DNA from: Bauldia sp.
GTDB lineage: Bacteria > Pseudomonadota > Alphaproteobacteria > Rhizobiales > Kaistiaceae
Assembly: GCA_028284325.1 (NCBI GenBank)
Contig: JANQRX010000010.1
Location: 248,001 to 312,000 of the forward strand
Length of the DNA: 64,000 bases
Reading direction: 5' to 3'
This document shows, piece after piece, positions 23,286 through 44,669 of the stretch; positions within the stretch are counted from its first letter, which is position 1; the number at the start of each line of letters is the position of its first letter. A program made the translations under genes and the position numbers. The notes under the pieces were generated by a model, which was not told the origin of the DNA, made no database searches, and saw only the letters and a program-made list of their open reading frames with translations.

Positions 23286-23336
23286 GAGTGATCGTCCGTG
23301 GCGTGCCCGGATGTCCTGAGAAGGAAGGCCTGTAAC

Positions 23337-23348
23337 TTGTAGATACAA
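23337..23348. promoter_or_regulatory. GntR/HutC-type operator
   Basis: TTGTAGATACAA is a near-perfect dyad (TTGTA-GA-TACAA) close to the HutC-subfamily consensus GT-N-TA-N-AC. It sits in the AT-rich middle of the MFS/thiolase divergent region, and a HutC-type GntR gene is third in the thiolase operon. Confidence 0.55.
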
Positions 23349-23408
23349 ATATGTTATGTCAATGAGCGTCGCCACGATCGCGCCGGCGCGGGTCGAACCG
23401 CAAAGACA

Positions 23409-24955: not shown

Positions 24956-24956
24956 A

Positions 24957-25721: not shown

Positions 25722-25735
25722 ACAGGACGCTCACG

Positions 25736-26815
25736 ATGGCCGACCCGAGGTTTCCCGCGCTCGACCGCGATCTGATGGAGGCGCGCCTGGCGCCGCCCGA
25801 CGGACCGGTGCGCCTGCTCATCGACACCGACACTGCCAACGAGATCGACGACCAGTACGCGCTGGCGCTGGCGCTCCTGTCGCCCGACGCCATGACGGTC
25901 GAGGCGGTGACGGCCGAGCCGTTCTCCTTCGCCCACCATCAGAAGGATCTTCTGGCGGCCGAACGGGCGCTCGACGCCGGGACGGCGCTCGACGAGCATC
26001 TCGTCGGGTCGCTGCGCGGCTGGATCGGGCGACTCCACGCCGCCGGCCGTCGCGCCGCCGACCTGCGCTTCGTCGGTCCGGCCGAGGGCATGGAGATGAG
26101 CTATGCCGAGATCAGGACGGTCTACGACAAGCTCGGCATCGCGGCCGACGGCGAGGTCTTCCGGGGCGCCGACCGTTACATGCCCGATGCCGCGACGCCG
26201 ATCCGGTCGGAAGCCGTCGATTGCATCATCGATCTCGCCAAGAGCGGCGCCGCGCCCCTCTACATCGGTGCCATGGGCTGCGTCACCAACATCGCCTCGG
26301 CGATGCTCGTCGCGCCCGAGATCATCGAGAACATCGTCGTCATCTGGACCTCGGCCTATCCCTCGCACGCGCCTCACAGCAACCGCCCGTCTCTGAACCT
26401 GGTGCAGGACCTGCCGGCGTCGCGGCTGATGTTCGACAGCGGCGTGCCGCTGGTCTACCTGCCCGGCTACCATGTCGGCGCCCAGCTGACGATCTCGCTG
26501 CCGGACATGGAACGGTTCGTGAAGGGCAGGGGGGCGATCGGCGACTATCTCTTCCATCTCTACACCCACAATCCGCTGCACGAGATGTTCGCCATCGATG
26601 ATGCCGCCCGGCGCACCTGGGTGATCTGGGATCTGATCGTCATCGCCTGGCTGATCAACCCGGACTGGGTGTCGACCTACGTTACGGCGACGCCGATCCT
26701 CGACGACGACCTGCATTGGAAGCACGACCCGACCCGGCCGCCGATGCGGGAAGGCTTCGGCGTGCAGCGCGACGAAATCTTCCGCGACCTGTTCGACAAG
26801 ATCGGGCGACTGTAG
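25736..26815 (+). CDS. Inosine/uridine-preferring nucleoside hydrolase family protein
   Basis: 359 residues, slightly longer than typical family members (about 310-330). The calcium-binding Asp cluster is modified: DTDTANEIDDQYAL instead of DTDxxxDDxxA, with the extra residue keeping both Asp pairs. The LYIGAMGCVTNIA segment corresponds to the active-site strand, and the tail has a WVIWDLIVIAWL helix. It should cleave an N- or related glycosidic bond. Being in an operon with a thiolase-like enzyme is unusual, so its substrate may not be a normal nucleoside. Confidence 0.82.
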   Translation: MADPRFPALDRDLMEARLAPPDGPVRLLIDTDTANEIDDQYALALALLSPDAMTVEAVTAEPFSFAHHQKDLLAAERALDAGTALDEHLVGSLRGWIGRLHAAGRRAADLRFVGPAEGMEMSYAEIRTVYDKLGIAADGEVFRGADRYMPDAATPIRSEAVDCIIDLAKSGAAPLYIGAMGCVTNIASAMLVAPEIIENIVVIWTSAYPSHAPHSNRPSLNLVQDLPASRLMFDSGVPLVYLPGYHVGAQLTISLPDMERFVKGRGAIGDYLFHLYTHNPLHEMFAIDDAARRTWVIWDLIVIAWLINPDWVSTYVTATPILDDDLHWKHDPTRPPMREGFGVQRDEIFRDLFDKIGRL

Positions 26816-26821
26816 GAGTTG

Positions 26822-27763
26822 TCAGGCCGACCGGGCGTCGGGCGTCCTGTCGCTGATCGCCGCGATGAGCTCGCGCAGGCGCGCGGCGCCGACCGTGGCG
26901 AGCCACTCGCGCAGGCCGGCCTCGCCGTCACGGCCGAAGACGGCGATCCCGTCGGACCAGATGGCCCGGCCGCACATGAAGCCCGCGAAGTCGATCCCGG
27001 CCTCCCGCGCCAGATGGAGCGAATCCCGGAACCGGTCGAACGGGACACCGGCGCTCAGATAGACCAGTGGGATGTCGCCGGCGGCGGCCGCGGCGGCGCG
27101 AAACGCCTCGACGGCCTCGGCACGCGACATCACCGCGTCGCCGTAACCTTCCACGAAGGTCAGATCGACGGGGACCTCGACCTTGAGCACGCTGGCCCCG
27201 AACCGGGGATCGGCGAACGTCGCCGTGGCGCGCCGCACCAGCTCCGGCTTGCGCAAGGCGAACTCGATCGATCCGGGCTGGAGATGGCGGTCGTAGACCA
27301 GCGGCTCCATGAGGAACCGCAGCCCGTGCGCCGCGCACGCGGCCCCGATGTCCGCCACCCGCTGCTCCTTGCGCGCGTTCAGCTCCGGTGGGTCATCGGG
27401 CGCATAGAACATGAAGAACTTCAGCAAGTTAACGCCCATGCCCGGATAGTCGCCGATCTCGATGTGGGTCGGCAGGACGGTCATCCGGTCGGCATCGGTG
27501 ATGTGATAGACGTCGGCCTCGTAGGCCATCATCGCCGCGCATCCGTCGGGATAGTCCGCCAGCAGGTCGGGGCCGAACTCGGCATCGATCAGCACCGTGC
27601 TCGCGAGCGGCCCCAGCGTGGTCAGCACGCAGCGCTTGAAGGTCTTCAGGTCGTCGTCCCGGGCGTTGGCGCCGCGCGCCTCGCGAATGGTTGCCGCGAG
27701 GCCGCTGCCGGCGTCGACCGCGACGCCATGGATGGGACGTTCGATCGGGACCGGTTCGCTCAC
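26822..27763 (-). CDS. Class I aldolase, tagatose-1,6-bisphosphate aldolase-like (LacD)
   Basis: 313 residues from the GTG at 27763, which overlaps the DhaK stop (GTGA). The Schiff-base Lys is in VLKVEVPVD (Lys194), and LLKFFMFYAPDDPPELNARK matches the LacD/COG3684 family. LacD splits tagatose-1,6-bisphosphate into DHAP and glyceraldehyde-3-phosphate. Here it is the last gene of an operon with a DhaKL-type kinase and a sugar isomerase-like protein and no visible bisphosphate-forming kinase, so a ketose 1-phosphate may be its real substrate. Confidence 0.85.
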   Translation of the reverse strand: MSEPVPIERPIHGVAVDAGSGLAATIREARGANARDDDLKTFKRCVLTTLGPLASTVLIDAEFGPDLLADYPDGCAAMMAYEADVYHITDADRMTVLPTHIEIGDYPGMGVNLLKFFMFYAPDDPPELNARKEQRVADIGAACAAHGLRFLMEPLVYDRHLQPGSIEFALRKPELVRRATATFADPRFGASVLKVEVPVDLTFVEGYGDAVMSRAEAVEAFRAAAAAAGDIPLVYLSAGVPFDRFRDSLHLAREAGIDFAGFMCGRAIWSDGIAVFGRDGEAGLREWLATVGAARLRELIAAISDRTPDARSA

Positions 27764-28782
27764 CGCCCCGCGCCCGCCCCGTAAATCCGCGGGAAGTCTG
27801 GGCTCGCCTGCGGCGCTTCCCACAGGGCCAGCATGGACGGCGTCGCCGTCAGGAGCGAAATCGAGAAGCCCGCGGTCTCCTGGGTCGTCGACAGCGAACC
27901 GATCACCGGCGATGTCGTCGGCACGCCGCGCGCGTCCAGGATCGCGGCCACTTCGCGATAGACGGTCAAGAGTTCCATACGCGTCGTCCCGCCCGAACCG
28001 TTGATCAGCGCCACGGTCGGCGTACCGGCCTCGATCGGTCGGTCGGCCAGGAGTTCGTCCATCATGAAGCCGACGAGATCGCCGACCGGACCGATCTTCC
28101 GCCGGGCGACACCGGGCTCGCCGTGCACGCCCATGCCGATGAAGATCTCGTCGTCCGGCAGCGCGAACATGGGCTGGCCGGTGAGCGGCGACACACCGGG
28201 CGCGATGGCCGCACCCAGCGTTCGGGTGCGCGCGCGCACGTCCTCGCCGAGCGCGACCAGGTCGTCGAGGGCCATGCCGGTTTCGGCCGCAGCACCCAGG
28301 ATCTTGTAGATGAAGATCGTGCCGGCGGCGCCGCGCCGCTCCTCTTCCTCGCCCTTCGGCGCCGACGAGATGTCGTCGTACATGAGCAGCGGACGGACCT
28401 TCAGGCCCTCGTCCAGCGCATCCATGACCGCCGCCTGGCCGTTGATGACGTCGCCCTCGTGCCGCGAGATCAGGAGGACGGCGCCGGCCTCGCCGGTGAC
28501 CTCCCTGATCCCTTCGAGGATGAGATCGGCCGACGGCGCGGCAAACACGTCGCCGACCACATTGGCGTCGAGCAGCCCCTCGCCGACAAAGCCCATGGCG
28601 ATCGGCTCATGGCCCGACCCGTTGCCGATCACGAGAGCGACCTTCTCGTCACGCGGCTTCGGATGGCGCCGCCTGACGACGCGCGGGTGAGCGCCACGCA
28701 CCACGACCGGCGCATATGCCGCAACAAAGCCGTCGATCATGTCGTCGGCCATGCGATCGGCGGCGTTGAACAGCTTCTTCAT
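27760..28782 (-). CDS. DhaK-like dihydroxyacetone/ketose kinase subunit
   Basis: 340 residues from the ATG at 28782, ATGA overlap with dhaL. DhaK binds the ketose covalently as a hemiaminal to an active-site His: GMGVHGEPG (His220) matches E. coli His218, and GNGSGHEP (His58) matches the second conserved His. The protein is a little shorter than some homologues. No PTS-type DhaM gene is present, so ATP rather than PEP-derived phosphate is likely. Related pairs phosphorylate erythrulose or other ketoses, fitting the sugar context. Confidence 0.88.
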   Translation of the reverse strand: MKKLFNAADRMADDMIDGFVAAYAPVVVRGAHPRVVRRRHPKPRDEKVALVIGNGSGHEPIAMGFVGEGLLDANVVGDVFAAPSADLILEGIREVTGEAGAVLLISRHEGDVINGQAAVMDALDEGLKVRPLLMYDDISSAPKGEEEERRGAAGTIFIYKILGAAAETGMALDDLVALGEDVRARTRTLGAAIAPGVSPLTGQPMFALPDDEIFIGMGVHGEPGVARRKIGPVGDLVGFMMDELLADRPIEAGTPTVALINGSGGTTRMELLTVYREVAAILDARGVPTTSPVIGSLSTTQETAGFSISLLTATPSMLALWEAPQASPDFPRIYGAGAGR

Positions 28783-29321
28783 GCCGAGGTCCGCCACGTC
28801 GCGTATTCGTCCAGCATCTCCGCGACGGAGACGGCGCCGGCGTCGAGATGCCCCACGCCCTTGCCCTCCACGTAGCGCGCGCGTCCCCGCCTGGCGCTGA
28901 GCGCCTTCGTGCCGTCGGCGCCCTTGCGTGCCGCTGCTGCCGCGGCCGTGGCGGCGTTGGCCGGATCGGTGTTCGCGGCTTCGGCCGCCGGCACCAGGGC
29001 ATCGAGCATGGTCTTGTCGCCGACCTTCGCCTGACCGAGCTGCGTGATCTGGTCGGCCGCCTGGCCGAGTGCGGCGCCCAGTGGCATGGCGTCGGCCTCC
29101 ACCGTTTCCAAGGCGGCGATCAGCCGGCTGAACAGGGAACCCGACGCGCCGCCGGCCACCGTGCGGAAGAACCTGGCGCGTCCGGTTTCGGCGTCGGCCG
29201 CGGCCTTCAGGCCCTTCAGGATCGTCGAGCCGTGGTCACCGTCGCCGGTGGCGGCATCGAGCTCGTTGAGCGCCGATTCCAGCCCGCTGAAACGCGTCAC
29301 GAGGCGATCGAACAGACTCAT
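28779..29321 (-). CDS. DhaL-like kinase subunit (nucleotide-binding)
   Basis: 180 residues. The Asp triad that binds Mg-nucleotide is in ATGDGDHGST (residues 24-33), followed by GGASGSLF and GDKTMLDAL, both family marks. It is the ADP/ATP domain that transfers phosphate to the DhaK-bound ketose. Precedes dhaK with ATGA overlap, 25 bp after the ABC ATPase gene. Confidence 0.9.
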   Translation of the reverse strand: MSLFDRLVTRFSGLESALNELDAATGDGDHGSTILKGLKAAADAETGRARFFRTVAGGASGSLFSRLIAALETVEADAMPLGAALGQAADQITQLGQAKVGDKTMLDALVPAAEAANTDPANAATAAAAAARKGADGTKALSARRGRARYVEGKGVGHLDAGAVSVAEMLDEYATWRTSA

Positions 29322-29346
29322 GGGATTTTGCCGCTCATGCCGGCGC

Positions 29347-30390
29347 CTACTCCGCCGGCAGGATCCATAGTTTGTTCTCGGGGAACTGGAGGGTGATCCT
29401 GTCGCCCTGGCCGTAGCGCTTCATCACGTCGGCGTCCGCCACGACGTTCACCGTGTGGTCGTCCACGGTCACGCGCAGGCGGGCATGGGTGCCGACATAG
29501 ACCTGGGAGTCGATGGTGCCGGAGACGGTGTTGGTCTCGCCGTCCTCGGACAGGCGCACGTCCTCCGGGCGAATGGTCAGGATCCCGCCATCTGCCGGAC
29601 CATCGCGGGTCACGCTGAAGCGGCCGATGGTCGAGGTGAAGCCGTCGCCGTCCTGTGTTCCGGTGAAGAAGTTCACGCCGCCGAAGAAGGCGGCGATGCG
29701 ACGCGAGCTCGGCTGCTCGTAGAACGCCAGCGGCTTGTCGTATTGCTGGAGCCGGCCGTCGAAGATCAGCGCGATCTTGTCGGCCAGCACCACGGCCTCC
29801 TCCTGGTCGTGGGTCACGAACACGGTGGTGATCCCCATTTGCTGCTGGATGTCGCGGATCAGGTCGCGCATCTCGAAGCGCAGGTGGGCGTCGAGATTGC
29901 TGAGCGGCTCGTCGAGCAGCAGGATCTTGGGGCGCACGACCAGGGCGCGGGCGAGCGCGACGCGCTGCTGCTGGCCGCCGGAGAGTTCCTTCGGCCGCCT
30001 GTCCTCCATGCCGGGCAAGCGGACCAGCTCCAGCATCTCTGCCACCTGCCGATCGATCTCAGCCCGCTCCATGCGGCGCATCTTGAGGCCGTAACCGACG
30101 TTCTGCGCGATGCTCATATAGGGGAACAGGAGGTGGTTCTGGAACACCATCACCGCGCCCCGCCGTTCCGGCGGGATGGACAGGATGGAGCGCTCGTCGA
30201 ACAGGATGTCGCCGGTCGTCGGCTTCAACAGGCCGGCGATCATCTTCATCGTCGTCGTCTTGCCGCAGCCGGACGGTCCGAGCAGCGCGGTCAGGCTGCC
30301 GGACTCGATATCGAGGTCGAGGTCGTCGACCGCGGGCGCGGCCTGCGCGGCGTAGACCTTGCTGAGGCCGCGGATCGCAAGATGTGTCAT
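29347..30390 (-). CDS. ABC transporter ATP-binding protein (MalK/PotA type)
   Basis: 347 residues. Walker A GPSGCGKTT, signature LSGGQQQRVALARAL, Walker [14 protein letters not shown]-loop VFVTHDQEE, then a C-terminal TOBE/regulatory domain of about 110 residues. It energises the two permeases upstream in this operon. It follows the GH51 gene and precedes dhaL. Confidence 0.95.
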   Translation of the reverse strand: MTHLAIRGLSKVYAAQAAPAVDDLDLDIESGSLTALLGPSGCGKTTTMKMIAGLLKPTTGDILFDERSILSIPPERRGAVMVFQNHLLFPYMSIAQNVGYGLKMRRMERAEIDRQVAEMLELVRLPGMEDRRPKELSGGQQQRVALARALVVRPKILLLDEPLSNLDAHLRFEMRDLIRDIQQQMGITTVFVTHDQEEAVVLADKIALIFDGRLQQYDKPLAFYEQPSSRRIAAFFGGVNFFTGTQDGDGFTSTIGRFSVTRDGPADGGILTIRPEDVRLSEDGETNTVSGTIDSQVYVGTHARLRVTVDDHTVNVVADADVMKRYGQGDRITLQFPENKLWILPAE

Positions 30391-30420
30391 GGGCGGCCTC
30401 GCTGCGCCGGATGGTGGTGG

Positions 30421-32373
30421 TTACGCATCGTTCGTCTCAATCGGTAGGACGGCCATGGCCACGGTGTGGGGCGGAATCCGCAGCGGCCCGTCCGCCGGCA
30501 ACGGGTCCTCCTCGATGACGACGGCCTCGGGCGCGTCCTCGGTGTTGAGATCCTGCGGCCCGCCGCCGGTGACGCGGAGGAGCCTGCCACCGTCACCGCG
30601 GGTCACGCCGGTCACGTCGATGGTGCCGGCGCGGTCGGGGTCGCGATTAACCACCGACAGGTACAGCACGCCCTTGTCCGGGTCACAGGTCGCGGCGGCG
30701 TCGACCAGCGGTACGGCGTCATAGGCGGGCAGGGTGCCGGCCGCCGGTGTCGCGACCGTCGGGCCGTCGGCGGAGCAGGCGACCGCAACCGGTCCGCGGA
30801 ACCGCGTGAACAGTTCCAGCACCAGCGTCGTCGGCGTCTTCCACACCTGCGTGGGCGTAACCCGGTAGTTGCCCATCACGTTGATGAGATTGAAGCACGC
30901 CGACATGGTCACCCACGCCGCGCGCTGCAGGCAGCCGTTCATCAGCGCGCCGGTGTAGAGGGCGTCGGCGATGCCGTAGTCCTCGAAGAAATCCGGCGGC
31001 TTGCCGCCGACATAGGTGTTCCACTCGTCGAAGGCGATGGTCGGCGCGGGATCGGCATGGGCGCGCACGATCTCCCACGTGCGGTCGAGCATCGCGCAGA
31101 CCTCGTGGGCCGAGGCGACCTTGGGCCAGTACAGTTCGGACGCCGGTGGCGGCGTCGACCACTTTTCCGTCCGGATGGAATAGTAGTGGACGCTCAGTTC
31201 GCGGATGCGGTCGCCGGCTTGCCTGAGGACCAGCTCGTTCCAGCGGCCGTAGAGATCGTTGGGCACCCCGACGGCAATGAGGTCGAGCGTGTCGTCGACG
31301 GCGAGCATGGCGTCGGCGAAGGCGAGATAGCGATGGGCGTAGGTCTCGGCATCGCAGTGGCCGACCTGCCAGTTGCCGAACTGCTCGTTGCCGACGAACC
31401 ATGTCGTCACCGCGTGGGGTTCGGGGAAGCCGTTGGCCGCGCGCAGGCGCCCCATCTCGGTCTCCGGCCCGCTGTTGCAGTAGGCGATCCAGCGGGCGGC
31501 CTCGTCGGGTGTGCCCGTGCCCATGTTGTTGGTCAGGATCGGCTCGGTGCCGACATGGCGGCAGAGGGCGATGAACTCGTCCGTGCCGACATCGTTGGAC
31601 TCCCACAGCGACCACGCCGGGTCGAGGTAGCCGGGCCGCGTGTCGCGGTCGCCGATGCCGTGTTCCCAGTGATAGGCCGAGGCGAAGTTGCCGCCCGGCC
31701 AGCGCAGGAAGGTCGGTCCCCATTCGCGGAGCGCCTCGATGACGTCGGGGCGGAAGCCGTCGACGTTGTCGGCCGGCATGACCGAGACGCAGCCGACCCA
31801 GAGGTCGCCCTCGGCGCTGTGCGCGATCGAGAAGACAGCGTCATCGTCGGCCTGGCCGATCGTCAACTCGGTCCGGTAGGTCTGCCAGTCGGAAGAGACA
31901 TCCGCGATCCGCCAGACCTGATCGCCGAGCCGGACCTCGACCTCCTGGCCGATGCCCTTCAGCACCACCCGCACCTGATAGCTGCGGCCCGCATCGACGG
32001 TGAGGCCACCTTGTCGAATACCGTGGGGCTGTCCGTCGGCGCGCCGGATGGTGATCCGCTGCGACTGCGCGCCGGTATAGAAGGTCGTGTTGTCGTGGAC
32101 GAAGAGCACATGATCGTCGTCCGGCGCCAGCGCCTCCCACGGTGCGACCACGCCGAAGGAGGGGTGCTGGTGCGCCAGCCCTTCGCTCAGGCCCACATAG
32201 GCGTGATCGTGGCCGAGGAACTTGCGGTTGCGCAGCAGTTCCGCCCAGACGCCCTCGTAGATCGAGCGGCCGATATGCTCGAGATTGGCGCCATAGAGAT
32301 GGTCATGCACAGCCCCCAACTGGATGCCGGGATCGACGGCGATGCTCGCGGAGAAGACGCCTACCTCGCTCAT
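30421..32373 (-). CDS. Alpha-L-arabinofuranosidase-like GH51 protein, cytoplasmic
   Basis: 650 residues from the ATG at 32373 (ATGA overlap with the permease). No signal peptide, so it acts inside the cell on imported glycosides. The N-terminal and C-terminal beta-sandwich parts flank a TIM barrel with WPGGNFASAYHWEHGIG, the acid/base Glu in WFVGNEQFG (Glu330) and the nucleophile Glu in IAFDEWN (Glu450). GH51 enzymes remove terminal arabinofuranose; a few act on xylan or glucan. A frame reaching to 33219 overlaps the permease gene and is not real. Confidence 0.93.
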   Translation of the reverse strand: MSEVGVFSASIAVDPGIQLGAVHDHLYGANLEHIGRSIYEGVWAELLRNRKFLGHDHAYVGLSEGLAHQHPSFGVVAPWEALAPDDDHVLFVHDNTTFYTGAQSQRITIRRADGQPHGIRQGGLTVDAGRSYQVRVVLKGIGQEVEVRLGDQVWRIADVSSDWQTYRTELTIGQADDDAVFSIAHSAEGDLWVGCVSVMPADNVDGFRPDVIEALREWGPTFLRWPGGNFASAYHWEHGIGDRDTRPGYLDPAWSLWESNDVGTDEFIALCRHVGTEPILTNNMGTGTPDEAARWIAYCNSGPETEMGRLRAANGFPEPHAVTTWFVGNEQFGNWQVGHCDAETYAHRYLAFADAMLAVDDTLDLIAVGVPNDLYGRWNELVLRQAGDRIRELSVHYYSIRTEKWSTPPPASELYWPKVASAHEVCAMLDRTWEIVRAHADPAPTIAFDEWNTYVGGKPPDFFEDYGIADALYTGALMNGCLQRAAWVTMSACFNLINVMGNYRVTPTQVWKTPTTLVLELFTRFRGPVAVACSADGPTVATPAAGTLPAYDAVPLVDAAATCDPDKGVLYLSVVNRDPDRAGTIDVTGVTRGDGGRLLRVTGGGPQDLNTEDAPEAVVIEEDPLPADGPLRIPPHTVAMAVLPIETNDA

Positions 32374-33323
32374 ACCCGGCCGAAGCCTCCGACGGCGCTG
32401 GAGTCGCCCGACAGGTAGCGCGAGGCGACCAGCAGGATGAGGACCGCGGGCGCGATGAAGATCAGCGACAGCACCGCGATGACCGCGTTGTTGCCGCTGC
32501 CGGCGGCCGAGAACAGGAGCATCGGCAGCGTGATCACGCGCCCCTGGCCGATCAGGAACGTCAGGAGATACTGGCTCCACGACACCAGGAACGCGAACAG
32601 TCCGGCGACGAACAGGCCGGGCAGGATGGCCGGGAACGTGACATCGAAGAAGATGCGGATCGGCCCCGCACCGAGGCTGCGCGCCTGGGCCTCGAAGTCG
32701 GCGTTGTAGTTGGCGAACACGCCGCTCAGCGTGAGCACGACGTAGGGCATCACCGGGACGAGATGGACGATGGCGACGCCGACGACGCTGCCGGCGAGAT
32801 CGAGCGGAATGCCGGCATCCGCGAGCGCCAGGTCCCAGCGGATGAAGTTGATGTTGAGGCCGAGGCTGAACGCGATCGGCGGCACGATCGTCGGGGTGAT
32901 GATCATGAACTCGACGATGCGCTTGCCCCTGAACCGGTAGAGACCGAGCGCGCGTGCCGCCGGCAGGCCGATGAGGATCGAGATGCCCGTGACCACCGCG
33001 CCGATCGACAGGCTGAGCCACAGCGCGCTCACGGCGTCGGGAACCTCGAGCCACAGCGCAATGAAGTTGGCCAGCGTCCGTTCGCCCTCGGGCGGGATCA
33101 GATCCAGCCGCTCCCAGGCCTGCAGGCTCCACTCCTTGGGAATGAACTGCGGATAGAACCAGCGGAAGGCGAAGGCGTTGAAGAAGAAGGCGATCACCGG
33201 CAGCACGAGCATGAGGCACATGAAGGCGATCGTCAGATAGAAGATCACCTTGCGCACGGCGGCGCCGACATTGCCGTCGCGGGCGGACACGTTCGTTGAA
33301 GCAGTGGGGGCGGCGTCGGACAT
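32370..33323 (-). CDS. ABC transporter permease (second TM subunit)
   Basis: 317 residues, six membrane helices, with the EAA loop EAQARSLGAGPIRIFFDVTFPAILPG before the fifth helix. It is the PotC/MalG-like partner of the permease encoded 4 bp upstream. Long soluble N-terminus of about 25 residues. Overlaps the GH51 start by 4 nt. Confidence 0.93.
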   Translation of the reverse strand: MSDAAPTASTNVSARDGNVGAAVRKVIFYLTIAFMCLMLVLPVIAFFFNAFAFRWFYPQFIPKEWSLQAWERLDLIPPEGERTLANFIALWLEVPDAVSALWLSLSIGAVVTGISILIGLPAARALGLYRFRGKRIVEFMIITPTIVPPIAFSLGLNINFIRWDLALADAGIPLDLAGSVVGVAIVHLVPVMPYVVLTLSGVFANYNADFEAQARSLGAGPIRIFFDVTFPAILPGLFVAGLFAFLVSWSQYLLTFLIGQGRVITLPMLLFSAAGSGNNAVIAVLSLIFIAPAVLILLVASRYLSGDSSAVGGFGRV

Positions 33324-33327
33324 CGGA

Positions 33328-34203
33328 CTAGTCGCGCCGTATCGTGCGCGCGCTGACGTACATGTAGAGGAACACCAGCGCGAGCACGATCAGGGCAATG
33401 ATGATGCTCGACGCCATGCCTTCGGCTCGGGCGTTGAGATCGGGGTTGAGGAAGAAGTCCAGCGTCAGCACCGGCAGCATCTGCGGGTGCTGCACGCCAA
33501 GGATGCGCGGCACCTCGAACGAGCCGAAGGTGAAGGCGAAGACGATGATCGACGCCGACATGAGGCCGGGCATGATCAGCGGCAGCGTCACCGTGCGGAA
33601 CCGCTGCCAGCGGTTGGCGCCGAGGCTCTGCGCGACCGCCTCGTAGTCGTCGCCGAGCGACTGCAGGATCGCCATCACGATGATGCCGAAGAAGGCGGTC
33701 TCCTTCCACACATAGGCGAGAATGATGCCGATGCCGTAGCGGTCGCGGGTCAGGATCGGGAAGTCCCGCGGCCCGCTGATGAGACCGAGTTCGCCGGCGA
33801 ACCGCGCCAGCAGACCGCTTTGCGAGAACAGGAGCAGCATGCCGATGGCGATCACCAGATGGGGGATCGGCAGGTTGAGCTGGAAGAGGAAGACAGAGAG
33901 TTTTTTACCAAAGAAAGTGCGGCGGAGCAGCAGCGCCAGCCCGACGGCCAGCGCAGCCGACAGGAACGTGCTGGCGCCGGCGACCCACAGGGTCAGCAGC
34001 AGGCCGGACCAGAACTGGCCGGCCTCGCGCCCGGTGAACATCACCGAGATGTAGGCGTCGAGGGTGAGGGTGGTGTTGCCGATCTGTGGCTGGAAGCCGA
34101 GGCTCTGGACAAGGCCGAAGGCCAGGCTGCCGAAGAACAGGACCGTGATGACGAGCAGGGTCGGACCGAGCATCAACGGTATGCGCAGCCGTTCCCAGTC
34201 CAT
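33328..34203 (-). CDS. ABC transporter permease (first TM subunit)
   Basis: 291 residues, six membrane helices, EAA loop EAVAQSLGANRWQRFRTVTLPLIMPG (about residue 184-209). It resembles the PotB/YnjC-type permeases. Located after the binding-protein gene, separated from it by the GC hairpin at 34231-34258. Confidence 0.93.
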   Translation of the reverse strand: MDWERLRIPLMLGPTLLVITVLFFGSLAFGLVQSLGFQPQIGNTTLTLDAYISVMFTGREAGQFWSGLLLTLWVAGASTFLSAALAVGLALLLRRTFFGKKLSVFLFQLNLPIPHLVIAIGMLLLFSQSGLLARFAGELGLISGPRDFPILTRDRYGIGIILAYVWKETAFFGIIVMAILQSLGDDYEAVAQSLGANRWQRFRTVTLPLIMPGLMSASIIVFAFTFGSFEVPRILGVQHPQMLPVLTLDFFLNPDLNARAEGMASSIIIALIVLALVFLYMYVSARTIRRD

Positions 34204-34230
34204 GTCTTGTTTCCCCGTCGGCTAGGTTGA

Positions 34231-34258
34231 CCCGGCCGCGCGCGTCGGCGCGGCCGGG
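34231..34258 (-). promoter_or_regulatory. Intra-operon GC hairpin after the YnjB-like binding-protein gene
   Basis: An 11-bp perfect stem (CCCGGCCGCGC at 34231-34241 with its complement at 34248-34258) and a 6-nt loop, 20 nt past the binding-protein stop. No T-run follows on the coding strand, so it looks like an mRNA 3' stabiliser or partial terminator that keeps binding-protein mRNA above permease mRNA. Confidence 0.65.
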
Positions 34259-34278
34259 CCGTTTGTCGTGTGGCCGGG

Positions 34279-35550
34279 TCAGTTCGGCAGCGGCTCGCCA
34301 CGTAGGACGTGGGCCTGCCAGTCCGCTTCGATCCGGGACTGGTACTCGGCCGCGATGTCGGCCACCAGCGCGGCGGCGAGACGGGCCGGGTCGGCCGCGG
34401 CATCGCCGAGGTTCTGCATGGCCTCGGCAACCGCCGCCTGCTGGCCGGCGTCGCTGACGCGGGCGACGTCGATCGCCCAGCCGCAGCAGAAACCGTTGGC
34501 CGGCTGGACCTGGGCCGCCTGGCGGTCGGGCCGCAGGATCAGGTTCGCCGTCACCAGCGCGGCCGCCTTGTTCGGCGCGTTGAACGGGATCGCGACGTAG
34601 TTGAAGTCGCCGATCAGGTTGGCGTCGAACGCGAACGCCCGCGACGTCGGCGGGACCAGGCCGGACTCGATGTTGCTGGCCGGGCCCGAGGGCGACTGGG
34701 TGAAGTCGAACTCGACCTCGCCGTTGGCGAACAGGTCACGCAGCTCGGCGTTCGAGGCCGGATAGGTTTCGCCCTCGCGCCACAGGTTCGGCTTCCAGGC
34801 GATCAGCATCTTCCAGACTTCCGGCGCCCACTTGTTGTAGAGCTCCTCGTTGAACGGGCCGACCCACTGGGCGTGGCCGCCGCTCACCTCGAAGAACAAC
34901 TGCTTGACGAAGCGCGTGCCGACAAAGGCACCGGGCCCCGGCGCGATGTAGCTGAAGCGTCCGGGATTGGCCGCGATCCAGTCGCCGAGTTCGGCGTAGG
35001 ACCGCGGAAGGTCACCCTCATTGAGGCGTGCCGAATCGTAGACGAAGTGGAACTGCGCGCTCGACCACGGGCTCTCATAGCCCTCGACCGGGCGGCCGAA
35101 GTCCAGGTTGATCGCCGGGTTGGCCCAGTCGACCAGGGCGGAGTTCGGAACGCCTTCAGCCCACGGACCGTAGAGCAGGTCAGCCTGGCGCAGCGTGAAG
35201 AAGTTCTCGCCGTTGATCCAGATGAGATCGATCGTGCCCTTGTCGCCGGTCGCCCCGGCTTCCTGCTCACTGATCACCTGGTTGACGGCGTCAACGGTGT
35301 CGGCGAGCGGCACCCGCTCCAGCGTGATGCCGTACTCCTCCATCAGCGGCTTGCCGTAGAAGTTGTCGACAAAACCGTTGATGTTGTCCGAGCCGCCCCA
35401 CATGTACCAGAACACCGTCTGGCCGTGGGCCTGCTCGACCACCTCGTCCCAGCTACCGAAGCCCGGCAGATCGTCCGCCACGGCATGGGTGCCGAATGCC
35501 GTTGCCGCGGCGACCGCCAGCACACCGGCCATTCGTTTCATCGTTTGCAT
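34279..35550 (-). CDS. YnjB-like ABC transporter substrate-binding protein
   Basis: 423 residues from the ATG at 35550, preceded by GGGAGG with good spacing; the signal peptide (MKRMAGVLAVAAATAFGTHAVA) supports it. The mature protein opens with QTVFWYMWGGSDNINGFVD and continues with IDLIWINGENFFTL, features of the YnjB/COG4134 family, whose ligand is not established. Context (GH51, isomerase, kinase, aldolase) suggests a pentose- or arabinoside-like ligand here. Confidence 0.9.
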   Translation of the reverse strand: MQTMKRMAGVLAVAAATAFGTHAVADDLPGFGSWDEVVEQAHGQTVFWYMWGGSDNINGFVDNFYGKPLMEEYGITLERVPLADTVDAVNQVISEQEAGATGDKGTIDLIWINGENFFTLRQADLLYGPWAEGVPNSALVDWANPAINLDFGRPVEGYESPWSSAQFHFVYDSARLNEGDLPRSYAELGDWIAANPGRFSYIAPGPGAFVGTRFVKQLFFEVSGGHAQWVGPFNEELYNKWAPEVWKMLIAWKPNLWREGETYPASNAELRDLFANGEVEFDFTQSPSGPASNIESGLVPPTSRAFAFDANLIGDFNYVAIPFNAPNKAAALVTANLILRPDRQAAQVQPANGFCCGWAIDVARVSDAGQQAAVAEAMQNLGDAAADPARLAAALVADIAAEYQSRIEADWQAHVLRGEPLPN

Positions 35551-35573
35551 AGTCATCCTCCCTTGGTTTCTCG

Positions 35574-37022
35574 TCATGCGTTGATGCCGTCCCGCTGCAA
35601 ATGATCAGCATAGGGCACCGGTTCGACAAGCCGCATCTTTTTCCATGCGGCGAGTTCCATGAGTTCGTCCGTTACGTCGCCTTGCCCCATCGCGAAATGG
35701 TGCTGATGGCCGCGAACGGTCAGCGTGTTGATCAGGTCCCAGAGTTCGATGGGCTCACCATTGAGATACGTCTTCGACAACCACCCGCGTGTTCCATCGT
35801 AGCCGGTCGAGGGGTGATCGACGACCTCCGACTTCACGACCAGAAGCTGGTCGGCGAACTCGTTGATGTAGGCGATCGACACCGGCTGGAGGGCGAAGAC
35901 CTGGTCGCCGGCGACCCCGTAGGGTCCGTCCGAGGCATTCCGCCCCAGCGTCACATGGTCGACCCAGCGGATGCCGTCGGCGTTGGCGAAGTGGCGAGGC
36001 GTCACCCCGCAATGCCACATCAGGAACGCCTGCCGGTCCGGATCGAGCGCTGCGAGGTCGAGGAGCGTTGACGAGCCTCTGGTCTCCGACAGGAGGTTCA
36101 ACACGTGCATGCTGACCGCGCCCAGAACGTCGCCTTCGCAGGACACCGGCATGTCGTGCTCGCTGCCGAGCCAACTGTAGGCCATGCACGGCGCGATCCC
36201 GTACAGTTGCTGGATGGTCGACCAGCACTGCACCGCCATCGTGTCGAACTCCATGTCCTGCGACAGGTCGTGAAGCGCGAGATAGAACCGGGTCACGCGA
36301 TCGAACGCGCTGTCCTCGCTCACCGTGACGCTGCTTGCCGCGGCGCGTATCTCCCGCGTCGCGTCGGCGACCCGGTCGGGCGCGATCGCTTTGGCCCGAT
36401 CCACCACCTCTTCGAGGTCGAGCGGCACCAGCGCGACGCCGAGGCGCGCCTGAAACGCCTGTTCGTCGGGCAGCATGCCGACAAAACCCGGGGAGATTCC
36501 GCCGATCCAGCCCACGCGCGTCCGGGCAAGGTTGGTCGCGGCCCTGAGCGCCCGCGCGGTGACCTCGAACCTGCGGCGAAACCCCGCCGAGTCCGGTGCG
36601 CCGTAGAACCATTTGAACGGGATATCGCGGTCCCGGAACCGGGTCTTGATGACGCTGGCGAAATGGTTCATCGATACCAGCGAATGCAACTGCACCTCAC
36701 CGTCCTGCCTGGGATCGGGGACGGACCAGAGCCCGATCCGCGGCGCCGCGTCCACCAGCGGATAGAGCTGTTCACCGGCGCTGCACGCCGCGTTCTGGAT
36801 CATGAGGAAGTCGAGGTCGGCGGCCCGCAACTCGGCGGCCGCCGCAGTGGCATCCGCTTCCGTCAGGATGGGCCGCTCGATGGCCGTCAGGTCGAAGCCG
36901 AGGTCCCCGGCGTAGCGCTGCAACGCCGCGACCGCGGTTTCGCGGACCTGGTACCTCTCGCCGAAATAGGACGAGATCGACACGCCGACGTAGCCGATTC
37001 GAGGCCGATGCCTGATCTTCAT
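35574..37022 (-). CDS. L-fucose/L-arabinose isomerase-superfamily protein
   Basis: 482 residues. The FucI/AraA C-terminal-like fold is shown by the metal-site motif CEGDVLGAVS (Glu about residue 292), the MAVQCWSTIQ segment and a His-rich GHQHHFAMGQGD (near residue 450). Such enzymes isomerise an aldose to its ketose with Mn2+; some family members act on sulfo- or phosphorylated sugars. It is the first gene of the nine-gene operon ending at 26822, 23 nt before the binding protein. Confidence 0.85.
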   Translation of the reverse strand: MKIRHRPRIGYVGVSISSYFGERYQVRETAVAALQRYAGDLGFDLTAIERPILTEADATAAAAELRAADLDFLMIQNAACSAGEQLYPLVDAAPRIGLWSVPDPRQDGEVQLHSLVSMNHFASVIKTRFRDRDIPFKWFYGAPDSAGFRRRFEVTARALRAATNLARTRVGWIGGISPGFVGMLPDEQAFQARLGVALVPLDLEEVVDRAKAIAPDRVADATREIRAAASSVTVSEDSAFDRVTRFYLALHDLSQDMEFDTMAVQCWSTIQQLYGIAPCMAYSWLGSEHDMPVSCEGDVLGAVSMHVLNLLSETRGSSTLLDLAALDPDRQAFLMWHCGVTPRHFANADGIRWVDHVTLGRNASDGPYGVAGDQVFALQPVSIAYINEFADQLLVVKSEVVDHPSTGYDGTRGWLSKTYLNGEPIELWDLINTLTVRGHQHHFAMGQGDVTDELMELAAWKKMRLVEPVPYADHLQRDGINA

Positions 37023-37104
37023 GAGGCAGGGCCGCCGGCGTGCGCGGTGTCGCGGGGGAGGGCCGTCACTGCGAAATCCATGTCTTCGGCCAACACCGCG
37101 CTCG

Positions 37105-37150
37105 TTGATTGTTTAACACCAATTTGAGAGTGCAAATTTGTTCTAATCAA
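37105..37150. promoter_or_regulatory. Nested inverted repeats in the isomerase/enolase divergent promoter
   Basis: AATTTG (37121-37126) and CAAATT (37133-37138) form a 6-bp dyad with a 6-bp spacer; TTGATT (37105-37110) and AATCAA (37145-37150) form an outer dyad almost on the same centre. The stretch is AT-rich and lies in the 168-bp region between divergent genes. It is a good operator candidate; no regulator gene is adjacent. Confidence 0.45.
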
Positions 37151-37190
37151 TTCCTGACTGTCAAGCTGAAACGGGGGGCCAACGGCGTTT

Positions 37191-38288
37191 ATGGCGGGGA
37201 AACTGGTGAAAGCGGACGTCGTCATCGTTCCGGTGACGGAGCGAACGGCGTGGCGGCACGTTGTCGTCACGTGCGACGACGGCCGGGTCGGGGTCGGCGA
37301 ATACACGCTGTACGAGCCGGCCATCGATGACCTGGTGCGTCGCCGGTTCGACCCGCTGATCGGTGCCACCGCGACGGACGGCCTGGCCCGGCTCGAGGCC
37401 ATGCCGATGGCCGATCTGGCCGAAGCCACGGCCGACTCGGCGCTTGACCAGGCGCTGCGCGACCTCGTGGCGCAGGAAGAGGGCCTGCCGATTACGCACC
37501 ACCTGAAGGTCGGGGCGACGTCGTCGTCCGTCCGCCTCTACGCCAACATCAACCGCAGGACCCGCGACCGCTCACCGGATTCGGTGGCGGCGAGCGCCCG
37601 GTCGGCGATAGCTGCCGGCTACGACGCGATCAAGATCGCGCCGTTCGACGATGTCAGCCCGGACAATTGCGACAGCGAGGAGGGCAGGGCCCTGATCGAA
37701 GCCGGGCTGGAGCGGCTTCGCGCCGCTGCCGGCGTCACCGCCGGCGATGCCGACCTCATGGTCGATTGCCACTGGCGCTTCACCACCGGCGCGGCCCGCA
37801 GCCTGATCCCCGAGCTCGCCGGCCTGGGAATCACCTGGTTCGAGTGTCCCATTCCCGAAACGCCTGACGCCGTCGCCGACCTACGTGACCTGCGCGCGAT
37901 GTGCGCCGACCGGGGCATGCGGTTTGCCGGTTGCGAGACCATGTTCGGGCGCGCCGGCTTCGCCCCGTTCGTGTCCGGCGGGGCCTACGACGTGATCATG
38001 CCCGATGTGAAGCACGCCGGAGGTCTGGCGGAGCTCATGCGGGTCGCCGAGGACGCCGAGAGGCAGGGCGTCGCCGTCTCGATCCACAATCCGAGCGGCC
38101 CGATCGCCCACACCCACAGCGTTCACGCCACCTGCGCGCTCGGCGGCGACGAGCGGCTGGAGGTCCAGTTCGACGAATCCCCGCTTTTCATGACGATCAC
38201 CGACCCGCCGCCGGTCATCGTCGCGGGCATGGCAACCCGCCCCGACGGCCCGGGGCTCGGCATGCGGCTGGAGGTGGACGGGGTGTGA
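37191..38288 (+). CDS. Enolase-superfamily (mandelate racemase/muconate lactonizing-like) protein
   Basis: 365 residues with the N-terminal capping domain and (beta/alpha)7-beta barrel. Metal ligands appear as Asp192 (MVDCHWRF), Glu218 (WFECPIPE) and the Glu in AGCETMFG; the acid-base region has only one Lys (DAIKIAPF, Lys148) rather than the common KxK, and a late His in SIHNPSGPIAHTHS. It probably dehydrates a sugar acid or related compound. It is divergent from the arabinoside/isomerase operon and may belong to the same regulon. Confidence 0.85.
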   Translation: MAGKLVKADVVIVPVTERTAWRHVVVTCDDGRVGVGEYTLYEPAIDDLVRRRFDPLIGATATDGLARLEAMPMADLAEATADSALDQALRDLVAQEEGLPITHHLKVGATSSSVRLYANINRRTRDRSPDSVAASARSAIAAGYDAIKIAPFDDVSPDNCDSEEGRALIEAGLERLRAAAGVTAGDADLMVDCHWRFTTGAARSLIPELAGLGITWFECPIPETPDAVADLRDLRAMCADRGMRFAGCETMFGRAGFAPFVSGGAYDVIMPDVKHAGGLAELMRVAEDAERQGVAVSIHNPSGPIAHTHSVHATCALGGDERLEVQFDESPLFMTITDPPPVIVAGMATRPDGPGLGMRLEVDGV

Positions 38289-39318: not shown

Positions 39319-40221
39319 ATGAAGCACCGCTTCGACGAGGCGCTGCCGCTCGTGCTCGCGCATGAGGGCGGCTACGTGAACCATCCGCGCGATCCGGGCG
39401 GGCCGACCAATCTCGGCGTCACGCTCGCCACCGCCCGCCGCTTCGGCATCGATGTCGACGGCGACGGCGACACCGACGTCGCCGACGTCAAAAAGCTGGC
39501 CCGCGCCCACGCGGCCGTGGTCTACCGCCGCGGCTATTGGGACGCGGTGCGTGGCGACGAGCTGCCCGCCGGCGTCGACTACGCGGTGTTCGACTATGCG
39601 GTGAACTCCGGCCCGGCGCGCGCCGCGAAGGACCTGCAGCGCGTGCTGGGGGTCGAAGTCGACGGCATGATCGGCCCGGTTACGCTCGACGCCGCGCACG
39701 ACGCAGACCCGGCGACGCTGGTCAACGATCTCTGCGATCGCCGGCTGGCCTTCGTCCAGGGCCTGTCGACCTGGTCGACGTTCGGCAGGGGCTGGGGCCG
39801 CCGCATCGAGGGCGTGCGCGAGCATGCCGTGGCGGTGGCCGCGCGCGCCGTGACGCCGCCGATCCCCAACGATCCGGGGCTGGCTCCATCGACGCCGGAC
39901 GCACCGCCGGCGCCCTTTTCACCAACCTTGGAGGCTGACTTTGCCATGAACATCATCACCGGGATCATCGCCCACATCGTTGGCGGCCAGGCGTCAAAGG
40001 CGATCGCCTCTGCGATCCCCGGCGTGCTCGCCGGCATCTTTCTCGGGCCGCAGGTGCTTGGCGAATTCCAGCAGGGGTTCGTCGAGGGCGGCGCCGGCCC
40101 GGCGGCCCACATGCTCGGCATGGCGCTGGGCGGGCTTTTCCTCGGCGGCGTGAACGCGATCGTCACGTGGTTCGCACCGAAGAACCGCGAGCCGAAGCCG
40201 GCCGACACTGAGGGCGCCTGA
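39319..40221 (+). CDS. GH108 N-acetylmuramidase (endolysin) with holin-like C-terminal membrane tail
   Basis: 300 residues. The first about 170 residues are a GH108 muramidase: catalytic Glu in LAHEGGYVNHPRDPGGPTNLG (Glu16) and the peptidoglycan-binding-like tail FDYAVNSGPARAAKDLQ, GVEVDGMIGPVTL. A Pro-rich linker (PPIPNDPGLAPSTPDAPPAP) leads to a hydrophobic end (residues 210-285, two or three helices) similar to a phage holin. An in-frame ATG at 39946 has a GGAGG at 39930-39934, so the membrane tail may also be made alone. Phage or gene-transfer-agent relic. Confidence 0.85.
   Translation: MKHRFDEALPLVLAHEGGYVNHPRDPGGPTNLGVTLATARRFGIDVDGDGDTDVADVKKLARAHAAVVYRRGYWDAVRGDELPAGVDYAVFDYAVNSGPARAAKDLQRVLGVEVDGMIGPVTLDAAHDADPATLVNDLCDRRLAFVQGLSTWSTFGRGWGRRIEGVREHAVAVAARAVTPPIPNDPGLAPSTPDAPPAPFSPTLEADFAMNIITGIIAHIVGGQASKAIASAIPGVLAGIFLGPQVLGEFQQGFVEGGAGPAAHMLGMALGGLFLGGVNAIVTWFAPKNREPKPADTEGA
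39946..40221 (+). CDS. Possible internally started holin-like protein nested in the endolysin gene
   Basis: In-frame ATG at 39946 with GGAGG 11 nt upstream would give a 91-residue membrane protein (MNIITGIIAHIVGGQASKAI and further hydrophobic segments). It matches the exact start of the membrane tail, just after the linker. Either the endolysin and holin were fused by loss of a stop codon, or both products are made. Evidence is the ribosome-binding sequence and domain border only. Confidence 0.45.
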   Translation: MNIITGIIAHIVGGQASKAIASAIPGVLAGIFLGPQVLGEFQQGFVEGGAGPAAHMLGMALGGLFLGGVNAIVTWFAPKNREPKPADTEGA

Positions 40222-44514: not shown

Positions 44515-44669
44515 GCCTCTGGCGCGCCGACTTATAGCGACCGCCCCGACCGGCGGCAAGCGCGGGTGCGGGCGGCGGTATCCCGGCCGCCGGGTGCGCG
44601 TTGCGGCGCTTCCGGCCAGCCTATATAGGATGCGCAAAAGCGCCGCTTCCGTGGCGACCATCACATCAT

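Follow-up and report, generated by a model that had tools for sequence, protein, structure and literature searches.

A conserved, apparently undescribed gene cassette with a possible role in the catabolism of C5-substituted ribosides

Introduction

Which compound is broken down by a nine-gene operon of Bauldia sp. that combines a sugar isomerase and an ABC importer with a DhaKL-type kinase and a LacD-like class I aldolase? The original prediction named L-arabinofuranosides as the substrate. Here, we address this question in the window, i.e., the whole stretch of 64,000 nucleotides that was analysed, and in related loci of other genomes and plasmids.

Gene Content of the Locus

As predicted, the nine genes of the operon were all located on the minus strand (26822-37022) and the divergent enolase-superfamily gene on the plus strand (37191-38288). 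The near-zero spacing was likewise borne out, as the operon genes overlap or lie at most 30 bp apart, with a gap of 75 bp after the binding-protein gene as the sole exception. This gap folds into a hairpin of -36.3 kcal/mol (z -2.33), with equally good folding in 6 of 200 shuffled sequences. The extent of the unit was underestimated, however, since four co-conserved genes were missed, which lie to the left of the operon on the plus strand (23409-26815) and encode a thiolase-fold protein with its DUF35 partner, a regulator of the GntR type and a nucleoside hydrolase. The features are as follows (percentages refer to comparison with L020-L022):

20442-22073, plus strand: GMC oxidoreductase, choline-dehydrogenase-like (NF002550, 547.9 bits, cut-off 605)
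22077-23375, minus strand: MFS transporter, divergent from the thiolase-fold gene (MFS_1)
23409-24584, plus strand: thiolase-fold protein without catalytic Cys/His (52-55%)
24584-24955, plus strand: DUF35/ChsH2 zinc-ribbon partner (zf-ChsH2, E 1.9e-4; 35-44%)
24957-25721, plus strand: GntR/UTRA regulator (domain match; 49-50%), its start taken as the second Met of the 24861 ORF
25736-26815, plus strand: nucleoside hydrolase with altered 5' site (IU_nuc_hydro, 54.4 bits, cut-off 34.2; 56-58%)
26822-27763, minus strand: LacD-like class I aldolase, GTG start (DeoC/LacD; NF009498, 242.4 bits, cut-off 184)
27760-28782, minus strand: DhaK-type kinase subunit, loop SRHEGDVING (Dak1, 312.4 bits)
28779-29321, minus strand: DhaL-type nucleotide-binding subunit (Dak2, 99.8 bits)
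29347-30390, minus strand: ABC ATPase of the importer (ABC_tran and TOBE_2)
30421-32373, minus strand: GH51-type furanosidase, accessory (Alpha-L-AF_C, 58.8 bits, cut-off 27)
32370-33323, minus strand: ABC permease 2 (BPD_transp_1; 36-38%)
33328-34203, minus strand: ABC permease 1 (BPD_transp_1; 39-40%)
34204-34278, minus strand: hairpin between binding-protein and permease genes (folding against shuffled sequences)
34279-35577, minus strand: YnjB-type solute-binding protein (NF008633, 399.8 bits, cut-off 203; 33-35%)
35574-37022, minus strand: divergent sugar isomerase with the L-arabinose/L-fucose isomerase fold (AlphaFold model)
37191-38288, plus strand: enolase-superfamily protein, sugar-acid dehydratase-like (profile matches)

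The enolase-superfamily gene has its sole matches among the relatives' loci in L059 and L060 (27-28% identical) and, judged by sequence comparison, is outside the conserved cassette. It is uncertain whether the GMC oxidoreductase is part of it; genes 57-60% identical flank three other cassettes (L036, L059 and L060), L059 and L060 being very similar genomes.

Conservation in Relatives

The gene-order search suggested along with the original prediction found the same set of genes, in largely the same order, in 28 relatives (25 genome loci and three plasmids), many of them marine bacteria, and in four more loci, hence the grouping of the operon is not due to chance. The recurrent unit is a conserved cassette of about 15 genes that is apparently undescribed. 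Presence was counted over the 26 sufficiently long relatives, leaving out the short contigs L029 and L048. The nucleoside hydrolase, isomerase, epimerase-like gene, DhaK, DhaL, binding protein and ATPase were found in 26/26, and LacD, the thiolase-fold protein, DUF35 and the CoA ligase in 24/26, while all of these genes are present in the four further loci. In most relatives, the cassette also includes genes for an acyl-CoA ligase, a 3-epimerase-like protein and an aldehyde dehydrogenase. The dehydrogenase gene directly follows LacD in 17 of the 28 loci, and six cassettes additionally have a nucleoside-phosphorylase-family gene. The window cassette is without epimerase, ligase and aldehyde dehydrogenase genes; elsewhere in the same genome, a different contig carries a CoA-ligase orthologue (67% identical to the L032 ligase), and the best match to the 3-epimerase, at 35%, is not a clear orthologue.

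Sugar Release and Isomerization

The hydrolases of the cassettes are distant from solved enzymes (best PDB match, E 3.7e-11) and have the DxDxxxxxDD motif, which we take to be the calcium motif of nucleoside hydrolases, in 27/27 sequences. The Glu of the E-x-N motif, presumably the ligand of the 5'-hydroxyl in solved nucleoside hydrolases, is replaced by Ser in all 27 and retained in 4/4 non-cassette homologues. The GH51 protein matches GH51 enzymes in the PDB (E 1e-69) with intact GNE and DEW segments, which we assume to be catalytic, and stays below the NCBIfam ArfA cut-off (242.5 of 625 bits). Among the loci compared, it is confined to the window and L032, the two proteins being 65% identical.

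The isomerase has no Pfam match, and its sole NCBIfam match is the sulfoquinovose isomerase SftI (134.4 bits, cut-off 700). An AlphaFold model of the protein (pLDDT 88.3) aligns over nearly its full length with both L-arabinose isomerase (Z 32.8, rmsd 3.9, 453 aligned residues, 13% identity) and L-fucose isomerase (Z about 27.6). The window isomerase shares 67% identity with its L032 counterpart and 27-34% with the other 11 aligned, and the isomerase of this GH51-containing sub-branch could be arabinose-like.

In the route first envisaged, an arabinofuranoside would be imported and cut by GH51, and the L-arabinose released would be isomerised and phosphorylated at C1 before its cleavage into DHAP and glycolaldehyde. 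This is in line with the retained GNE and DEW segments of the GH51 protein, with a model closest to L-arabinose isomerases, and with the isomerase type peculiar to the window and L032. However, GH51 occurs in 1/26 relatives and the nucleoside hydrolase in every one, hence an L-arabinofuranoside is a poor guess, and such a substrate would neither give the thiolase-fold protein, DUF35 and the CoA ligase a role nor agree with the loss of Glu from the 5'-hydroxyl site of the hydrolase. We consider this route very improbable, while the kinase-aldolase idea survives.

Kinase and Aldolase

The predicted succession of aldose-ketose isomerase, DhaKL-type ketose kinase and LacD-like class I aldolase stands in so far as it can be inferred from fold, motifs and co-occurrence. 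In DhaK, the NYxGD motif, kept in 4/4 non-cassette controls, is changed to [RQ]HxGD in 29/29 cassette sequences. H225 (HGEPG) and D116 (GD) are invariant in four aligned sequences; presumably, the His of GxHGExG is substrate-binding and the Asp of GD likewise functional. The LacD-like protein matches tagatose-bisphosphate aldolases of the PDB (E 1e-50) and keeps the LKVEVPVD segment, which we take to hold the Schiff-base Lys, yet it does not reach the lacD equivalog TIGR01232 (175.7 of 432.2 bits). As a separate observation, the kinase is retained in L028 and L043 although LacD is absent; the scheme proposed below offers no explanation for this.

The Thiolase-Fold/DUF35 Pair

The thiolase-fold protein has Gly at the site of the nucleophilic Cys, GAP for GHP and a YD[AS][YF] motif in 25/25 sequences, and its predicted model is close to 6esq (Z 51.0), Ltp2 (43.4) and Sal (42.4). 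The zf-ChsH2 match of the DUF35 protein, at 21.6 bits, is slightly below the cut-off of 23.2. A thiolase fold with a DUF35 partner is common to the steroid side-chain retro-aldolases Sal-Shy and Ltp2-ChsH2 as described in PMC12329534, where CtSal is reported to have Gly at the Cys site and a catalytic Tyr; both the Gly and the Tyr of the YD motif also occur in the cassette protein. The second catalytic residue of these enzymes (Cys304 of CtSal, the His of YDHF in Ltp2) is Ala or Ser in 25/25 cassette proteins, and the cassette genes adjoin sugar genes, unlike the Sal and Ltp2 systems. Based on these likenesses, we propose that the protein may be a retro-aldol-like enzyme.

The cassette could also be made up of two loosely linked modules, a sugar half that uses an ordinary ribose-type sugar and a separate CoA half that acts on a carboxylic-acid aglycone or a carbon-extended tail, R'-CH(OH)-CH2-, through a genuine retro-aldol or Claisen reaction at carbon. 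Sal and the other thiolase-fold/DUF35 pairs of known function covered in PMC12329534 act on C-C bonds, and the CoA and kinase blocks are on opposite strands in the window, L027, L034, L049 and L094-L097. Moreover, a non-cassette locus of the window genome (C5) groups a cassette-type isomerase with thiolase-fold and DUF35 genes and an acetoacetate-CoA ligase scoring above the cut-off, a combination that might reflect ordinary beta-keto acid chemistry. Against such a division, LacD and the thiolase module are jointly absent from L028 and L043, whose whole genomes gave no LacD match (control genomes, 7/7 matched) and no thiolase orthologue (best 33% in one, nothing in the other), and the CoA half therefore appears tied to the aldolase product. 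The position of the aldehyde dehydrogenase directly after LacD argues in the same direction, and we know of no abundant 5-deoxy C-extended riboside. Two separate modules thus seem rather unlikely to us.

A Proposed Pathway

We see an even chance that the cassette serves to degrade ribofuranosides or ribonucleosides in which C5 bears a substituent R instead of a free hydroxyl. From gene content, gene order and residue changes, which were observed directly, we infer each reaction of the scheme and the identity of R; no cassette gene identifies R. The compound would be imported by the YnjB-type ABC system, and 5-R-ribose would be freed by the nucleoside hydrolase, together with the nucleoside-phosphorylase-family enzyme in some lineages and GH51 in the window. 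The AraA/FucI-fold isomerase would make the ketose, which the psicose-3-epimerase-like enzyme of relatives may epimerise, DhaKL would phosphorylate C1, and the LacD-like aldolase would cleave C3-C4 to give DHAP and R-CH2-CHO. The aldehyde dehydrogenase could then form R-CH2-COOH and the CoA ligase its thioester, so that retro-aldol-like cleavage of the R-CH2 bond by the Cys-less thiolase-fold/DUF35 pair would yield acetyl-CoA. The R product may leave through the MFS protein, a proposed exporter whose top NCBIfam model is an L-lactate MFS transporter (106.6 bits, cut-off 320) and whose counterparts adjoin the thiolase gene in L027, L032, L049 and L094-L097. Several points count against this pathway, namely the missing second Sal/Ltp2 catalytic residue, the genes absent from the window cassette, the kinase without LacD in L028 and L043, the distance of the hydrolase from solved enzymes, and the C5 locus.

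If R were H or CH3S, the cassette would be a non-orthologous DHAP shunt for 5'-deoxyadenosine or methylthioadenosine, in which nucleosidase, isomerase, kinase and aldolase give DHAP and acetaldehyde or methylthioacetaldehyde, the aldehyde then being oxidised and activated to a CoA thioester. The nucleoside hydrolase, the phosphorylase-family gene of six cassettes and the altered 5' site of the hydrolase would suit this, the drd pathway as described in PMC6079011 also ends in DHAP and an aldehyde, and the L032 ligase scores best in NCBIfam against the acetate-CoA ligase model (363.9 bits, below the cut-off of 729). However, none of the MtnK/DrdK, MtnA/DrdI and class II DrdA families was seen in the cassette, nor was the combination of an MTR kinase or MTA phosphorylase with an MtnA-type isomerase, and acetyl-CoA or methylthioacetyl-CoA would presumably leave a Cys-less thiolase-fold/DUF35 pair and an exporter without obvious use. 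This version of the pathway is, in our judgement, improbable.

Within the preferred reading, that of a C5-substituted riboside, the boldest assignment of R would be dimethylarsinoyl, although we find it doubtful that the substrate is an arsenosugar or a related arsenic nucleoside (5-deoxy-5-dimethylarsinoyl-ribofuranoside) and the cassette the missing bacterial breakdown pathway. Cleavage of C3-C4 would then yield dimethylarsinoyl-acetaldehyde, the CoA ligase and the Cys-less thiolase-fold enzyme would break the As-C bond in an arsenic analogue of a retro-aldol reaction, and of the products, acetyl-CoA and dimethylarsinate, the latter would be removed by the MFS exporter. Human urinary metabolites of arsenosugars are reported to include dimethylarsinate and thio forms of the acid and alcohol that match this aldehyde. 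How an arsenosugar, a type of compound known from seaweed, is degraded to dimethylarsinate during digestion is called 'not clear' in PMC6656958. The cassette MFS proteins from 14 genomes score between ArsK-like arsenite efflux (NF033733) and general MFS proteins, the 14 copies counted reaching 59-107 bits against an ArsK equivalog cut-off of 400; the window MFS, of a different, lactate-transporter-like type, gave no ArsK match in the profile search. If true, the arsenosugar reading would provide genes for the breakdown of a major class of algal organic arsenic and a new way of breaking the carbon-arsenic bond. Beyond the nature of R, the cassette is tightly conserved and apparently catabolic, would join a new enzyme set from a pentose-type ketose to DHAP with a Cys-less thiolase-fold enzyme, and has residue changes in three enzyme families that each predict a new substrate.

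Comparison with Known Systems

Two cassette proteins resemble enzymes of sulfoquinovose catabolism, as SftI is the isomerase's only NCBIfam match (134.4 of 700 bits) and the sulfoquinovose aldolase YihT matches the LacD-like protein (E 2e-7); to our knowledge, the known sulfoquinovose routes include neither nucleoside hydrolase nor thiolase-fold genes. The FucI-FucK-FucA route for L-fucose and D-arabinose has the same order of isomerization, phosphorylation at C1 and aldol cleavage to DHAP, and its isomerase fold is related. It uses an FGGY kinase and a class II aldolase, whereas the cassette has the DhaKL and LacD types. The DHAP shunt (drdK, drdI and drdA), which is encoded in clusters, some with transporters, likewise converts a 5'-modified nucleoside to DHAP and a C2-type aldehyde according to the account in PMC6079011. 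The enzymes given there belong to the MTR-kinase family, the aldose-1-phosphate isomerases and the class II aldolases, while the cassette encodes an AraA/FucI-fold isomerase, DhaKL (Dak1/Dak2) and a LacD-like aldolase of class I, with a CoA-dependent half after them.

Proposed Pathway

The cassette of which the operon forms part is proposed here to break down 5-R-ribosides, R being the substituent on C5, a reading of the gene content, gene order and residue changes described below to which we give an even chance of being right. The riboside would be imported and its sugar freed and isomerised, in relatives perhaps also epimerised, after which phosphorylation at C1 and cleavage would yield DHAP and R-CH2-CHO. 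The aldehyde would then be oxidised and activated with CoA, and a retro-aldol-like enzyme would split the thioester into acetyl-CoA and an R product, which would be exported. The original prediction had instead envisaged an L-arabinofuranoside as substrate, hydrolysed by GH51.

Extent and Distribution of the Cassette

The nine operon genes and the divergent enolase-superfamily gene lie where they had been placed, and the near-zero spacing was borne out as well, as neighbors overlap or are at most 30 bp apart except for 75 bp after the binding-protein gene, at the site of the folding hairpin. Two starts were corrected from the sequence, to GTG 27763 for the LacD-like gene and to ATG 28782 for DhaK. 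Judged by sequence similarity, the conserved unit extends beyond this operon to its left, where four genes are 35-58% identical to genes of plasmid-borne cassettes:

23409-24584, plus strand, thiolase-fold protein
24584-24955, plus strand, DUF35 protein
24957-25721, plus strand, GntR
25736-26815, plus strand, nucleoside hydrolase
26822-37022, minus strand, nine-gene operon, including the LacD-like aldolase (26822-27763) and DhaK (27760-28782)

The plasmids came from a search with the isomerase, in which 15 records matched and three were followed, all from Rhodobacterales (Parasedimentitalea marina, Marinovum algicola, and Paracoccus seriniphilus). Their gene order is MFS, thiolase, DUF35, AMP ligase, sugar-phosphate isomerase/epimerase, DhaL, DhaK, LacD, (aldehyde dehydrogenase), GntR, isomerase, ATPase, binding protein, two permeases and nucleoside hydrolase. 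A pattern scan derived from a DhaK alignment, covering 84,980 species with a single genome for each and reaching close relatives only, added 25 loci. Presence was counted in 26 of these 28 loci, leaving aside the short contigs L029 and L048; the independent number is smaller than the raw count, as L021/L039, L022/L036, L037/L044, and L041/L050 are close pairs. Nucleoside hydrolase, isomerase, epimerase-like gene, DhaK, DhaL, binding protein, ATPase and permease 2 occur in 26/26, LacD, thiolase-fold protein, DUF35, ligase and GntR in 24/26, and aldehyde dehydrogenase in 18/26. Permease 1 was counted in 25/26, yet is visible in the 26th locus (L051). The MFS gene is of the Marinovum type in 18/26 and of the window type in 3/26.

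GH51, found in 1/26 relatives, was rejected as the defining enzyme. Among cassette loci, GH51 is confined to the window and one relative, L032 (65% identical); these two also have in common a divergent isomerase (67% identical), the other 11 aligned isomerases being 27-34% identical to that of the window. The enolase-superfamily gene was likewise rejected as a member of the unit, as its sole matches in the loci of relatives are 27-28% identical.

Going by record titles, most hosts are Rhodobacterales or Rhizobiales-type bacteria, and one is a MAG named Granulosicoccus. Seawater or a marine animal is given as source in two plasmid records, and many other host names are presumably those of marine bacteria. 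Four more cassettes (L094-L097) were found in the order to which the genome of locus L033 belongs, where this DhaK type is present at E 1e-100 in 6/292 genomes, two of the six being the centre genome and the L050 genome.

Elsewhere in the window, a lysozyme-like ORF with a phage-derived look, read from its translation, lies just right of the operon (39319-40221), and a Pro(cgg) tRNA on the minus strand is close to a Gln(ttg) tRNA on the plus strand (44438-44744). A PADLOC scan gave no matches. A choline-dehydrogenase-like GMC enzyme is encoded at 20442-22073, and genes 57-60% identical to it flank three other cassettes (L036:812-2428, L059:11992-13620, and L060:12001-13629); the enzyme might produce the proposed aldehyde by oxidising an alcohol, R-CH2-CH2OH.

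Enzymes of the Sugar Half

In the alignment, the E-x-N segment of solved nucleoside hydrolases, whose Glu and Asn bind the 5'-OH in those structures, reads S-L-N in the cassette enzyme. Ser replaces the Glu in 27/27 cassette copies, while Glu is kept in 4/4 homologs from other contexts (Klebsiella, Mesorhizobium, Ensifer, and Paenibacillus); this and the residue counts below leave out L094-L097. Trp in place of the general-acid His was rejected as a mark of the cassette, as four non-cassette homologs have it too. Four plasmid records with nucleoside hydrolase homologs of 33-36% identity contained no cassette, the homologs adjoining ABC, nucleoside-transporter/PfkB or GH43/sugar-transport genes. 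A nucleoside-phosphorylase-family gene lies in or beside six cassettes (L027, L049, and L094-L097), assigned by profile matches that are all below curated cut-offs and in L095 by similarity only. A short-chain dehydrogenase gene separates LacD from the isomerase in five (L027 and L094-L097), called by profile scan in L097 and by DNA similarity of 73-94% in the others. For at least some of the cassettes, these extra genes strengthen the case for an N-glycoside.

No Pfam family matches the isomerase. The structure predicted for it from 13 cassette sequences (pLDDT 88.3) resembles, over nearly the full length, those of L-arabinose isomerases (Z 32.8, 13% identity) and, with Z about 27.6, those of L-fucose isomerases. 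A sulfoquinovose pathway was rejected, as the SftI score is far below the cut-off. DhaK keeps the His of HGEPG and the Asp of GD, and its NYxGD loop is changed to [RQ]HxGD in 29/29 cassette copies, the loop being intact in 4/4 DhaK controls.

Thiolase-Fold Protein and Its Probable Link to the Aldolase

In 25/25 cassette thiolase-fold proteins, the nucleophilic Cys is replaced by Gly, the His of the EVHD motif by Tyr, and GHP by GAP. The closest matches to the predicted structure of the window protein (pLDDT 82.8) are acetoacetyl-CoA thiolase (Z 51.0) and a Pyrococcus thiolase (Z 50.7); the steroid retro-aldolases Ltp2 (Z 43.4) and Sal (Z 42.4) match as well. The fold alone leaves the function undecided. 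Sal, which has a DUF35 partner, likewise carries Gly in place of the Cys, with the Tyr serving as base (PMC12329534). In contrast, its second catalytic residue, Cys304, corresponds to Ala or Ser in the cassette proteins.

LacD and the thiolase block are both missing from two cassettes, L028 and L043, the contig of the latter beginning at the epimerase-like gene. LacD had no match anywhere in these two genomes, the same query matching 7/7 control genomes; for the thiolase, the best match was 33% identical in one of the genomes, and the second genome had none, controls being run for the LacD query only. This co-absence supports a CoA half that acts on the aldolase product, although incomplete genomes could mimic it. 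Both cassettes keep the kinase, and the fate of its product there falls outside the proposed scheme. Near the L043 cassette lies a gene for BhcA, L-aspartate-glyoxylate aminotransferase (L043:10409-11626, 721.7 bits against a cut-off of 650). An aldehyde dehydrogenase directly follows LacD in 17/28 loci.

In the window genome, the CoA-ligase ortholog is on another contig and is 67% identical to that of L032. Its locus (L083, C1:447000-466900) is flanked by GntR paralogs (46-50% identical to the window GntR), ABC genes and a sulfatase. The best relative of the 3-epimerase in this genome is 35% identical, with no clear ortholog. Three further loci of the same genome hold related genes. Locus L023 (C5:91000-110000) groups MFS, DUF35, thiolase-fold, acetoacetate-CoA ligase and isomerase genes at 3047-10543, its isomerase being 56-61% identical to those of the three plasmid cassettes and only 35-36% to that of the window. 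In locus L024 (C10:57000-76000), adjoining genes at 6846-10193 encode a DeoR-type regulator, a LacD-like aldolase that with 340.5 bits exceeds the cut-off of NF009498, and a third isomerase paralog, with no DhaK match in that stretch. A second Dak1 gene (L026, C1:142420-143058) scores 245.3 bits and is 32-35% identical to cassette DhaK proteins.

Nature of the Substituent R

On chemical grounds, loss of an acetyl-CoA enolate would require that R accept water or hydroxide, as an acyl or hydroxyalkyl carbon or a main-group oxide would. To our knowledge, the common natural marine 5-deoxy-ribofuranosides are dimethylarsinoyl ribosides. C3-C4 aldol cleavage of a dimethylarsinoyl riboside would yield a C2 arsenic aldehyde. 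Thio forms of the corresponding C2 acid and alcohol, as well as dimethylarsinate, are listed among the human urinary metabolites of arsenosugars in one study, in which, however, human gut bacteria did nothing to an arsenosugar beyond thiolating it and made no dimethylarsinate, which counts against arsenic (PMC6656958). The titles, abstract beginnings and passages searched contained no gene set or enzymes for arsenosugar breakdown. For arsenobetaine, bacterial degradation reportedly runs via dimethylarsinoylacetate (Jenkins 2003).

In 14 of 20 searched genomes the cassette MFS is of the Marinovum type, ranking first among the ArsK matches in 11 of them and second in three; with 59-107 bits it scores above the other MFS matches of those genomes, between ArsK-like and general MFS proteins. 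In five of the six remaining genomes, a protein encoded outside the cassette matches ArsK more strongly (133-150 bits), a comparison made post hoc. Among 21 proteins scanned, 16 match ArsK and 12 a lactate transporter, the true base being 20, as L031:4084-5262 is 4-hydroxybenzoate-hydroxylase-like and not an MFS. Similarity to ArsK was rejected as proof, since 29/142 alphaproteobacterial genomes have full-length ArsK-like proteins of >100 bits and the window copy is unlike ArsK; its resemblance to lactate transporters counts against arsenic, as does the acetoacetate-CoA ligase of L023. In an all-against-all comparison of 244 flanking ORFs, the families that recurred were limited to ABC parts, repeats from near-identical strains, a FAD/GMC-type pair and a phosphorylase-like gene; none of the families named, some being left unnamed, is an arsenic family. 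As a limited test this counts further against arsenic; the profile libraries covered selected flanking ORFs, so that ars genes may lie among the others. R is unlikely to be dimethylarsinoyl.

Comparison With Known Systems

A literature search, thin on subscription journals and preprints, found nothing relevant that joins these genes. The logic of the proposed pathway is like that of the DHAP shunt, whose enzyme families fell outside the cassette in a membership test (PMC6079011), and it is likewise similar to that of fucose degradation.
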